Assembly: GCF_964020195.1 (NCBI RefSeq) | Contig: NZ_OZ026539.1 | Coordinates: 1,244,299-1,308,298 of the forward strand | Source: Spiroplasma endosymbiont of Lasioglossum villosulum | GTDB taxonomy: Bacteria; Bacillota_I; Bacilli_A; Mycoplasmatales; VBWQ01 | Direction: 5' to 3' | DNA: 64,000 nt | Part shown: one piece after another, positions 4,698 to 13,136 of the stretch | Position numbering within the stretch: the first letter of the stretch is position 1 | Layout: each line of letters begins with the position of its first letter | Program-made: the position numbers and the translations under genes | Notes under the pieces: model-generated | What the model was told of the DNA's origin: nothing | The model's database searches: none | The model's input: the letters and a program-made list of their open reading frames with translations, nothing else

Positions 4698-6482
4698 CTA
4701 TTCACCTTTCGTTGATTGACTTTTATGTCATTTCCAATAATTTGGATAATTTAAAGCATCTAGCACTTTATTTGCTTGTTCTGATTCTAATACTTTTCCT
4801 AGTAAATAGTCAACCTTTAATCCTTTTAAAACAATAATTTCAGGAACATTAATAATACCACGAGCTAAAATATTTTTAATACCTAAAATTCTTAAATAAT
4901 GCAAACAAATAATAACATCAATATATTTACTAAAACTAAAAGTAACTTGTTCTAATAAATTAGAAGTTAAAACTACATAATCAGGCTTAAAATGATTAAT
5001 TAATTTAAAATTATCAATATGACGTAAATCATGAGTAAAAGAAATTTTTATTTTATTACTACGAATAGTTTTAATAATTGAATCATACTTATTCCAACTA
5101 TTAATTTCACCAATATCTTGAAAATCAAAAATTAAATCACAATTTTCAAAAAGATTTTTTCTCTTATTAACAAGAGCAATCAACTTTGTTAAAATAGTTT
5201 TATCTTGTAACTCAATTAAACTAACAGGAAGAATAAGGTTTTTTTCTTGTTTTAATTTCGCAAATTTTTCAAATGTTTGAATAAATAAAGGTTCATTTAC
5301 TTTTCATCACAATCCTGAATCTTGAATATTACGCATCAAAACAATAAACGAAACATAATAAGAGTTTTTAACAAAATTTCATCAAGCATAGTAACAATTT
5401 GGCTCATTTGAATTATCACTTTTATACACTGGTCTAATACTAACACTTAATAATTTTTCCATTTGCTCTGATTGTAGAAGCGAATAATGATTATAATCAG
5501 GATAATTTAAAATATCATTTGTCTTCAATTTAATTTCAATTAAGTCTCTACTTTGTACTACTTCTAATTGATTCTTATCAATAATTTTATTATATAATAT
5601 ATAGACATTTGAAGCATCAGTTTTTACTGAAGCATAAACACATAATATTTGACTTTGAATCTGCAAATAACTACTTTTTTCTACTAAATTACGTTTAATA
5701 TAACTATTTATTTTTTTTTGGAATCGATATAAATTTATTTTCTTATTTCTAGAATAAATTAAAAACTGACCATCATAATATTTACAAATAATAGTATTAT
5801 CTAATCCTAAAGTTATTTTACTATAATATGAAATTAATAACTCCATTCGTTCAATATTATTAACAGTTAAAATATTTTCTAATGCTAAATAATTTTTTAT
5901 TTTTATTAAAATCATATATTCAAATTGACTATTTATTTTTTTATTATATTTTTTTTGACTAAAATTATCTAAAATAGTTTGCACAAAAACTGACTTTACC
6001 ACTGTTAACTCATTTTGTTGTAAAATAATTGCTTGTGAAATAGCAAAACGATTATAACGAATATTACTTTGCATTTGACCATACAAAACTTTATTATTAT
6101 TATCAAAATAATCAATTGATAAATCATAAACAATAACTTTACTTCCTAATTGAAAGGAAACCGAAAAATGACACGACTCAAATGGAACTTTATTCACTAA
6201 TAAATCTTGAATAAAAATTTCAATTTTTACTTTAGTTTTACGATTCATCATTGATTTAAATACAAACAATGAAATTCTTTTTTTACGATTTAAAACTTCT
6301 AAGCGTTCAGAAAAAGTAATAATTTCATTTTTTAAATCAATTTTCAATGGAACTAAACTTAACAAATCACCATGGATAACATTATAATATTGATTATTAC
6401 GATGATTTAAACGCATAAATAAAATAATTATTATTGTCATAAAAGGAATTAAAGCAATAATTACAATTGCAGATCAACGCAT
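4698..6482 (-). CDS. membrane protein with degenerate GGDEF-like and EAL-like domains
   Basis: 594 residues across several TGA codons; start at an ATG 5 bp after a perfect GGAGGT. An N-terminal membrane segment (about residues 4-23) precedes a region of unknown fold. A GGDEF-shaped stretch follows, where CKYYDGQFLIYS replaces the usual R-GGDEF strand-turn-strand. The C-terminal ~160 residues follow the EAL barrel order: LIFDFQDIGE at the ITE strand, ISFTHDLRHID where DDFGTG is expected, ARGI at the AEGVE position, and VDYLLGKVL at VDYLQGYL. Key metal/catalytic acids are missing, so c-di-GMP synthesis or hydrolysis is unlikely; a binding or scaffold role is possible. It forms a unit with the 233-residue gene 14 bp upstream. 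Confidence 0.6.
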
Positions 6483-9164: not shown

Positions 9165-11771
9165 TTATACAACACAAACATTGCATTGATAATTTTCACT
9201 ATCCTCTAAAACCTCTTGACGAATACGAACATAATAAATTGATGAACAACCTTTTTTAAAGGCTCTAATATAAGCTTTATTTAAATCACGAGTTGTCGCT
9301 TTATCAGTAATAAATAAAGTTAAAGAAATTGCTTGATCAACGTGTTGTTGTGCTGCTGCTACAATATCAATAATTGGATTAGGGCCTAATTCATATCCAC
9401 CTGCAGTGTAATATGCTAAATTATTATCATCAATCTTATAAGCAGGAACATAAACACGACCTAATTTCCCTTCTTTTCGTACCTCAACAGGAGCAACTAC
9501 CGGTTGTAGACTTGGTGTACATGAAGATAAATAACTAATTGAACCAGTGGGTGCTACTGCCATTAAATGTGAATTAGCCAATCCTGTTTCTTTAATTTTT
9601 ATTACTAATTCTTTTCATTGCTTCTGAGTTGGAATCATAATGTTATATTTTGCAAATAATTCTTGTATTTTTTTTGTTTCAGGAGTTCATTTATCTGACT
9701 GACATTTTATATATTTATCAAAATATGAACCATCAGCAAATTTTGAATTTTTAAATCCACTAAAACTTCCAAATTTTAATGCTAATTTATTTGAAGCACT
9801 AAAAGCATGATAAGCCATAACATAAAAGAAAATATTAGTAAAATCAATTGCTTCTTTTGAATCATAAAAAATATGATTTGTTGCTAAAAATCCATGTAAA
9901 TTCATAGCGCCTAAACCCAAAGCATGATTTTTTTTATTTCCATATGCAACTGATGGAGCACTAGAAAAATCACTACTTCTTGATACATGGTCTAATGAAT
10001 GAATTGCTTGAAAAATAACCTCACCAAATTCACTTCCACTTTCCATTACTTTTGCAATATTAATACTTCCTAAATTACAACTAATATCTTCACCAATTTC
10101 TTTAAAACTTAAATCACTATTAAATTCACTAGCTGTACTTACTTGAATAATTTCACTGCACAAATTACTCATAACAATTCTACCAGGATGAGCATTATTT
10201 TTATTTACTGTATCATCAAATAATAAATAAGGATATCCACTTTCAAAATGTAATTCAGCAATCATTTGAAATAATTTGCGAGCACTAATAAAATTTTTAC
10301 TAATATCAGGGTTTTTTAACATATTATAATACTCTTTAGTAATAGAAATATCTGTCATTGCTTTACCATAAACTTTTGCAATATCATAAGGACTAAAAAG
10401 TGCCATCTGTTCATTATTTTTTGCTAATTCAAAAGTAATATCAGGAATAACTACTCCTAAAGACATTGATTTAATACGAATTTTTTCATCTGCATTTTCA
10501 CGCTTTGAATCTAAAAATAACATAATATCTGGATGATGAACATTTAAATAAACTGCCCCAGCACCTTGTCTTTGACCTAGTTGATTAGCATATGAAAATG
10601 AATCTTCAAGAATTTTCATAACCGGGATAACCCCTGTTGCTTGATTTTTAATATTTTTAATTGGCGCTCCAAATTCTCTTAAATTTGTTAAACACAAAGC
10701 AACTCCACCACCACGTTTTGATAACTGTAATGAAGTAGTAATAGCTCGAGCAATTGATTCCATGTTATCTTCAATTCGTAAAAGATAACATGAAGTGTAT
10801 TCACCTCTTTGTTTTTTCCCTGCATTTAAAAATGTGGGAGTAGCTGGTTGAAATCTACCAGACATAATTTGTCTTAAAATTTTACTAGCATGTTCAATAT
10901 TACCATCTGCAAAAAATAAACTATTCATAACAACTCTATCTTCATAATTTTCTAAATATTGTTTACCATTAAAACTTTTTAAAGCATAAGAATTATAAAA
11001 TTTTAAAATACCCATAAAACTTGTAAACTGATAATTAAAACTGTATGCTTCATTTGTTAATCGTTCAATTTCCGTAATTGAATATTTATTAATTATTGTT
11101 TCATCATAATATTGATTTTTTACTAAATATTCTATTCTTTCTTTAACGGTTTTAAAAAGCAATAAATTTGGTTTAATATGATTTTTCATATAAGATTGTG
11201 CTGCTTGCAAATCAAATTGTGCATTATTAGTAGTTTTTGCTCTAGCATTTAAAGTAACATATTCATCACTTTCTAAAGTTCCAGATAAAGTATTTATTTC
11301 ATTAGTATTTTTTTTATCTTTATCTCAAAAATCTACTAATATATTTTTTATTGTTGATACATCATTTTGAGTTCCTAATAATTCAAATTGAAATAATAGT
11401 GGGACATTTAATTTTTTTGAAAGAATTGGCCCAGCAATTGCAAAAGTATCACCAAAATTAGTATTCCCCGACGCAATAACACCACGACAAAAATTACGAT
11501 TTTGCTTATTATTTAAAAATTTAATTACCTGTTTAGGAACTGCCCCTTCTTTAATATCACCACCCCCACTATATGTTGGTGTTATTAACACATAATCTTT
11601 ATCAACTAAAATTTCCTCTTGTAAATCGTGAGGAATTCTTGAATTTAAAACCTCTAATTTTTGAATAAAACGATGAGTATTATTTGACAAAGAAGAAAAA
11701 TAAACAACATGAATTTTTCCTTCTGGCTTTAATATTTTTTGGTTTGAAACTTTTACAACATCATTATGCAT
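9165..11771 (-). CDS. nrdI-nrdE: NrdI-NrdE fusion: flavodoxin-like activator plus class I ribonucleotide reductase alpha subunit
   Basis: A single open frame of 868 residues. Residues 1-149 are NrdI, a flavodoxin-like FMN protein (VYFSSLSNNTHRFI, TPTYSGGG, SGNTNFGDTF, LLGTQNDV), ending in the usual EF/DFW. After a polar linker (about 150-172) NrdE begins at YVTLNARAK and runs to the end. Its redox and active-site residues are present: SCYLL, the N-L-C-S-E thiyl-site triad (SNLCSEI), CNLGSINIAK, the SIYYVR tyrosine pair, and a C-terminal CNVC. NDPs are reduced here. No ATG, GTG or TTG occurs between the NrdI end and the conserved start of NrdE; the first candidate (TTG at 11210) would remove about 20 conserved residues. 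AGGAGT precedes the NrdI start. Third partner NrdF lies 18 bp upstream. Confidence 0.85.
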
Positions 11772-11789: not shown

Positions 11790-12809
11790 TTAAAATTCTC
11801 AATCTTCATCTTGCGTTTCTACAGTAATGCCCATTACATAAGATGAACCATTACCTGAAAAGAAATCGTGATTTTCATCAGCTCGAGCTGATAATTGATT
11901 AAAAATTTCCGGTTTAATTCTTGTTTGTTCTTCACTAAAAGGTGAATCATATCCTAAATTTTGTAAAAACTTACCAGCATTATATAAACTAAACTTAATA
12001 GCGTCTTCAGCTAAATTAAATTCTTGATATAATTCTGTCAAATATTGCTTTTCTAAATCAATTAATTTAAACAATAAATCAAATACAAATTTTTTCATTT
12101 CTTCTTGTTTTTCTTTTGGTAATTTTTCAACTTTTCTTTGATATTTATAGCCACTATAATAATTATGAATAACTTTATCACGTAAAATTAATCTAATAAT
12201 ATCTGAAGTATTAGGTAATTTACTACGAGCAGATAAATAAAATGGTAAATAAAAACCACCATATAATAAAAAACCTGGCATTAAAGCGGCAGCTACTTTC
12301 GATTTTAAAGGATCATCACTTGTATAATAAGGAATTAGTGCACGTGCTCTGGCTTGTAAACTTTCATTATTAATTACTCACTCATGAGCAGATTCAATCT
12401 GCTCACTAGAACATAAAGTTGAAAAAATTGTTCCGTATGATCGAGCATGAACTGCTACCATAAAAGCAAAATTTGTATAAATAACTTGTTCATGATCAGT
12501 TAAAGAATTAGGTATTTGTGCAATATCACCAACCGTTGCCTGAATTGTATCTAATAAAGTTAAACCTGTAAATGTTCTTGTTATTAACTCTTGTCATTTT
12601 GGATTTAATGTTTTTCAAGAAGTCAAGTCATTAGAAACAGGAATTTTTTCTGGTAACCAAAAATTTTGAGTAATACGATTTCAAACTTCTAAATCTTTTT
12701 CATCATTGATTACATTTCAATTTACAGATCGCATTTTTCCATTAAAATTTTTCATAATATACTCTAATGGTGACTGTGATTGTTGAAAATATTTGTTATC
12801 TTTTGCCAT
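11790..12809 (-). CDS. nrdF: ribonucleotide reductase beta subunit NrdF, class Ie (VPK type)
   Basis: 339 residues. Of the six residues that bind the di-metal centre in ordinary NrdF, three are replaced: Glu by Val118 in MVAVHARSY, Glu by Pro178 in AALMPGFLLYGGF, and Glu by Lys212 in RDKVIHNYY. Asp61, His121, His215 and the radical Tyr125 remain. This Val/Pro/Lys pattern is the signature of class Ie R2 proteins, which work without metal using a tyrosine-derived DOPA radical made with NrdI. The C-terminus DEDWEF is the NrdE-docking tail. GAGGGG precedes the ATG. It is the first gene of nrdF-nrdIE, downstream of a cobalamin riboswitch and terminator. Confidence 0.93.
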
Positions 12810-12841: not shown

Positions 12842-12875
12842 AAAAACATCCCCTATATTATATAAAGGATGTTGT
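12842..12875 (-). terminator. leader terminator (attenuator) of the nrd operon
   Basis: On the minus strand ACATCC pairs with GGATGT and the stem extends inward through TTTATA/TATAGG (about 13 bp, 3-nt loop, with G-T pairs), followed by TTTTTAG. It lies 33 bp before the nrdF ATG and about 110 bp after the riboswitch aptamer, so it is well placed as the expression platform. Confidence 0.75.
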
Positions 12876-12985
12876 CATTATTAAAAATTACTTTATTAAA
12901 ATTACAAATATTAAAAAATAAAAGTAATTATTAAAAATAATCATTAATTCACACCCAGGAATATAATATCACTTAAAAAATTAGA

Positions 12986-13125
12986 CCGGTCTACTGGCTT
13001 AGCTTCATTTTACTTGTTACCCTTCTCAAAGTTTTATCTTCAATGGTTTTGTAACGTTCATCAACATCACAGTTGCTGGGGCAGCAAAGAATTCTCATCT
13101 TTTTCCCGAACATCTAAAGTTCCTT
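12986..13125 (-). promoter_or_regulatory. cobalamin (B12) riboswitch aptamer in the nrdF leader
   Basis: Read on the minus strand, the conserved elements appear in order: GGGAA, then GATGAGAATTC, then GCTGCCCCAGCAACTGTGA (L5/J region and P5-P6 core), GATGAACG, ACCATTG, GAGAAGG, and finally GATGAAGCTAAGCCAGTAGACC (B12-box region). Base composition is clearly higher in GC than the flanks. These riboswitches bind adenosyl- or other cobalamins and usually shut down expression when B12 is abundant. Control of a B12-independent ribonucleotide reductase by B12 is a known arrangement in other bacteria. The self-complementary TAGACCGGTCTA at 12982-12993 followed by T6 overlaps the 3' end. Confidence 0.9.
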
Positions 13126-13136
13126 GTTATTTAGTT

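Follow-up and report, generated by a model that had tools for sequence, protein, structure and literature searches.

A NrdI-NrdE gene fusion beside a class Ie-type radical subunit in the Spiroplasma ixodetis family

The fused gene and its operon

The minus strand of the window, as we call the whole 64,000-nucleotide stretch of DNA analysed here, carries a ribonucleotide reductase (RNR) operon in which nrdF is followed by a single gene that encodes both NrdI, the activating flavoprotein, and NrdE, the catalytic subunit. The features of the locus are the following.

9165..11771, minus strand: nrdI::nrdE fused gene, 868 aa (table 4), a single open frame with two family models in one protein
11322..11771, minus strand: NrdI domain, residues 1-150 (NrdI model match 23-151)
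11256..11321, minus strand: linker, residues 151-172 (pLDDT < 50 at residues 152-167)
9168..11261, minus strand: NrdE domain, residues 171-868 (TIGR04170; PF08343/PF00317/PF02867)
11790..12809, minus strand: nrdF, class Ie (VPK) R2 subunit by its match to the Mesoplasma florum R2e structure 6gp2
12845..12873, minus strand: terminator-like hairpin in the interval between riboswitch and nrdF, 13 pairs and a U run
12967..13132, minus strand: cobalamin riboswitch aptamer (RF00174) in the nrdF-nrdI::nrdE leader, 82.2 bits, E=1e-19

The fused frame runs from 11771 to 9165. It opens with an ATG located 18 bases past the nrdF stop and preceded by AAAGGAG, and extends for 868 codons under table 4 (TGA=Trp) up to a closing TAA. 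Its NrdI part is recognised by TIGR00333 at residues 23-151 with 176 bits and by PF07972 of Pfam at residues 23-142, and its NrdE part by the class 1b NrdE model TIGR04170 at residues 171-868 with 975 bits; both NCBIfam scores are above the cut-offs, 74.65 and 750 bits respectively. The NrdI domain also matches NrdI structures determined for class Ie systems (E=1e-46). The NrdE domain contains the RNR_N, all-alpha and barrel domains of the three Pfam families, and inspection of the sequence located the NLCSE motif, the YY pair and the C-terminal CxxC all within it.

From residue 150 to the conserved NrdE block there is neither a TAA or TAG nor an ATG, GTG or TTG in frame. The first in-frame TTG and ATG are codons 188 and 195, both within the RNR_N domain (171-247), and no Shine-Dalgarno motif was found upstream of these two candidate internal starts. 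The TGA at W149 is regarded as coding because TGA is read through elsewhere in the fused gene and in neighbouring genes, and because the separate NrdI of relatives also finish with FW and a few residues. An earlier, sequence-only reading of this DNA had proposed an unbroken passage from NrdI into NrdE through a linker of ~23 residues, without a usual start codon near the NrdE start, and a product of ~98 kDa; these claims were borne out, the size being that of the encoded chain. In the AlphaFold2 model of the fusion (mean pLDDT 86, pTM 0.78) two confident domains are joined by a low-confidence stretch at residues 152-167, and this part of the linker is probably disordered.

The NrdF encoded directly upstream gives 665 bits against 6gp2 (phmmer) and, as in that structure, has V, P and K at the three Glu metal-ligand positions (VAVHARSYG, LMPGFLLY and RDKVIH), with the radical-site Tyr and its surroundings conserved. 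These residues identify the partner as a class Ie (VPK) subunit, predicted to be metal-free and of the DOPA-radical type, and the gene order nrdF-nrdI-nrdE is likewise that of class Ie. The operons of Mesoplasma florum, Aerococcus urinae and Streptococcus pyogenes share this order, a VPK NrdF, and homologous NrdI and NrdE throughout, but their nrdI and nrdE are separate, whereas in S. ixodetis they are one gene. A separate NrdI is usual in class Ie VPK systems without being strictly defining.

The leaders differ too, a 2'-dG-I riboswitch being found near the operon of Mesoplasma seiffertii and a cobalamin riboswitch in the leader of S. ixodetis. The latter occupies the same place in the other genomes of the family that keep the operon, and several other members of the order (G105, G111, G137, G143, G155 and G200) have it before nrdFIE. 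Control by B12 of a class I RNR in genomes that also have a class II, B12-dependent RNR is a known logic. In the window genome the class II NrdJ (G000:C1:1461837-1463638, locus L084) is frameshifted and its conserved motifs are changed; intact copies (L085, L086) exist in G003 and G005, that of G005 scoring 1247 bits with the vitamin B12-dependent RNR model, and NrdJ gave no match in S. ixodetis SHM. NrdD was not found in the window genome, where no further NrdI and no other intact RNR large subunit turned up besides the fusion; therefore the protein, judged from gene content, should be functional. The riboswitch is kept although nrdJ is broken, so that B12 would switch off the only RNR.

Conservation and origin of the fusion

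The sequence-only reading had suggested looking for the fusion in related genomes, and this comparison returned seven genomes with the unbroken frame, namely the six of the genus (G000-G005) and one of the three of the sister genus (G007). The fused protein of S. ixodetis SHM (G001), which is grouped as the same species as the window genome, is 100% identical, and the fused genomes range to 78% identity. Their linkers vary in sequence and change in length only by whole codons. In comparisons of the more diverged fused genomes with the window genome, dN/dS is 0.08-0.14 for NrdI, 0.19-0.21 for NrdE and 0.65-0.87 for the linker; on these ratios, both domains are under purifying selection. In a scan of 298 genomes of the order, an unbroken junction frame was found in none besides the seven among the matches listed, and the other listed matches spanning both parts either had a TAA or TAG or consisted of separate matches. 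G135 and G030 each showed a longer open frame at NrdE, but on closer inspection both are cases of separate genes and were rejected.

In those relatives examined that keep two genes, NrdI stops 1-8 residues past the conserved FW (in a few, FF or LW); the distance from the nrdI stop to the nrdE ATG ranges between -68 and +33 nt and is often exactly 0. The separate NrdE of the relative G123 (L079) starts MNTKEINTLSGTSESDDYIALNA. The fused linker reads KNTNEINTLSGTLESDEYVTLNA and aligns with it, the position of the start Met being now occupied by Lys; therefore the linker would be composed of a few residues of the NrdI tail followed by the old N-terminal tail of NrdE. By this alignment it is mostly ancestral NrdE tail with the start Met replaced. 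A few mutations in an nrdF-nrdI-nrdE operon would have merged the two nearly adjoining genes into one, nrdI losing its stop codon and nrdE its start codon, together with small indels.

In the RpoB+RpoC tree the fused genus is sister, with full support, to a group formed by the fused G007 and the pair of G006 and G008; of these, the lineage JKS002669 (G006) keeps nrdI and nrdE separate and G008 has no operon. In the nrd tree the family is a single clade (support 96/98), and the fused rows as a clade of their own were weakly rejected (AU p=0.033, for a hypothesis named after the tree was seen). Because of that rejection and of the separate genes in G006, the history would comprise either a single fusion with a later split or two separate fusions, both equally parsimonious. 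Synteny was tried as proof of a single inherited fusion and discarded, as G000, G004, G007 and G006 have no genes in common within 12 kb of their nrd loci. At the nrd loci L139-L143, G002 and G004 differ from the S. ixodetis group in their gene neighbourhoods, and their NrdE are 78% identical to those of the group while RpoB/C are 92% identical. Both differences suggest that the nrdF/I/E operon of the genus underwent replacement or fast evolution.

A second fusion in phytoplasmas

The sequence-only reading knew of no such fusion in other mollicutes, a statement overtaken by the finding of an independent one in 26 of the 27 phytoplasma genomes that have NrdI. Among 392 Bacillota genomes scanned for NrdI, strong matches within frames of 857-878 aa occurred in one genus only; the frame lengths in that scan stop at TGA, so that fusions of code-4 mollicutes are invisible to it and the 298-genome scan is the test for those. 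A full scan of the phytoplasma genus placed NrdI in frames of 780-878 aa in the 26 genomes, 'Ca. Phytoplasma asteris' AYWB and 'Ca. P. australiense' among them, and at a contig end in the 27th. No fused NrdI was found in 316 genomes of another Bacilli order, and in a search of phages and plasmids the best-ranked matches were mostly in two pieces, with nrdI and nrdE annotated separately, and none was shown fused. A 742-aa frame with a weak NrdI match in G302 is an unrelated protein.

The phytoplasma proteins (loci L133-L137 and L144-L153) resemble the Spiroplasma one in having NrdI before NrdE in one frame, here in the standard genetic code. The adjoining NrdF keeps the canonical metal ligands (ENAVHAKSY, FLETWLFYSG and RDESIH) and is for this reason assigned to class Ib. 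Where adjacent, it is encoded after nrdIE, whereas the Spiroplasma nrdF is upstream and class Ie. The phytoplasma linker is variable in length and unrelated to that of Spiroplasma, and the N-terminus of the phytoplasma NrdI is diverged. The phytoplasma fusion is independent of the Spiroplasma one and had a separate origin. The N-terminal (FMN phosphate-binding) loop of the phytoplasma NrdI domain is changed, and the domain of AYWB scores under the TIGR00333 cut-off.

Phytoplasma papers, PMC3633829 among them, give nrdE/nrdA and nrdF and no nrdI. The absence of nrdI from these gene lists would be explained by its fusion to nrdE, and the gene may thus be missed or mis-annotated in phytoplasma genomes. 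Searches of the open literature, with few subscription papers, turned up no account of an NrdI-NrdE fusion in Spiroplasma or phytoplasmas. The closest known cases are the class Ie operons with separate NrdI and the NrdB of Facklamia ignava with fused glutaredoxin and ATP-cone (PMC6187632). In the latter an RNR accessory is likewise covalently joined to an RNR subunit, but it is a reductant on the radical subunit, while in Spiroplasma it is the activating flavoprotein on the catalytic subunit.

Possible roles of the tether

The domain content and the conservation of both halves make it likely that the fusion is a bifunctional RNR large subunit with a built-in activase. In such a protein the NrdI domain with reduced FMN would react with O2, and superoxide/HO2- would pass through the NrdI-NrdF channel to generate the DOPA radical of NrdF or to restore it. 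The activated NrdF would then be bound by an NrdE domain, either of the same chain or of its partner, which would use the radical. A fixed 1:1 stoichiometry and a high local concentration may allow fast re-activation after radical loss. The tether would probably let the activation and catalytic complexes alternate, so that simultaneous docking of both would not be needed.

That a tether between activation and catalysis, as proposed by the sequence-only reading, aids activation or re-activation is plausible and fits known chemistry. Class Ie enzymes of this kind form DOPA only with NrdI (PMC11846895, PMC7615503), which can also re-activate the radical by re-oxidising a quenched R2e (PMC7615503). 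In a class Ie QSK system DOPA formation peaked when the whole operon including R1 was co-expressed, to the surprise of the authors (PMC11846895). The gain from permanent tethering is nevertheless not obvious, because an activated R2e-VPK performs many turnovers without NrdI (PMC11846895), and the enzyme can evidently work without the fusion, since the sister lineage JKS002669 has separate genes.

Could the single frame be an artefact, or give rise to two proteins? A stop or frameshift at the junction masked by an assembly or sequencing error has a practically negligible probability, because seven genomes of the S. ixodetis family carry the same frame: S. ixodetis and its close relatives show the same junction in several assemblies, and genomes only 78% identical are also fused, with different linkers, so that the comparative data already refute it. 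Production of separate proteins from the fused frame, by a non-standard internal start or by cleavage in the linker, would agree with the disorder predicted in the model and, in S. ixodetis, with an ATA codon at residue 159. That ATA is absent in G004, however, the ancestral ATG is lost, no candidate start is preceded by a Shine-Dalgarno motif, and independent translation of NrdE would not hold the linker in frame, all of which makes this outcome very improbable. The conclusion that the fusion is genuine and made as one protein is hence well supported by the sequence comparisons.

The main rival to a built-in activase accepts the fused protein and denies the tether any advantage, the fusion having been fixed by drift in small host-bound populations and its halves working as before. 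The starting arrangement would make this easy, since with the nrdE start so close to the nrdI stop the loss of one stop and one start is enough. The linker evolves almost freely and, being relaxed and mostly ancestral tail, bears no sign of having been shaped as a tether; moreover, a re-split or unfused sister exists, and fusions were seen only in host-associated, genome-reduced lineages. Against drift, the fusion arose in the same I-then-E order in two mollicute lineages that are unrelated, and it persists genus-wide in the phytoplasmas, and the other scanned Bacilli genomes with NrdI show none. On balance drift seems an unlikely explanation, if one with some weight, and the built-in activase is preferred.

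A broader proposal is put forward tentatively, and we consider it somewhat doubtful. On this view selection would have favoured the covalent coupling of activase and catalytic subunit on two or more occasions in wall-less, host-bound bacteria, in one case alongside a class Ie and in another alongside a class Ib radical subunit. NrdF could then be activated, and activated again, while within the R1-R2 holoenzyme, and R1 would thereby join in cofactor maturation. S. ixodetis is a tick and insect symbiont and phytoplasmas are plant-pathogenic, and the same natural fusion arose independently in both. The convergent case indicates that the fusion is compatible with metal-free and metal-dependent radical subunits.

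With the fusion one can ask whether a single complex carries out both radical activation and catalysis. As the only intact RNR of its organism, it is a ready-made construct for the encounter of NrdI and NrdF in the cell, and is suited to the questions of whether R1 must leave for activation and why co-expression of R1 raised DOPA formation.

Elsewhere in the window, positions 4698-6482 of the minus strand encode a probable membrane protein of 594 aa, whose C-terminal half is weakly EAL-like (21 bits, below the cut-off), a resemblance unexpected for a mollicute.
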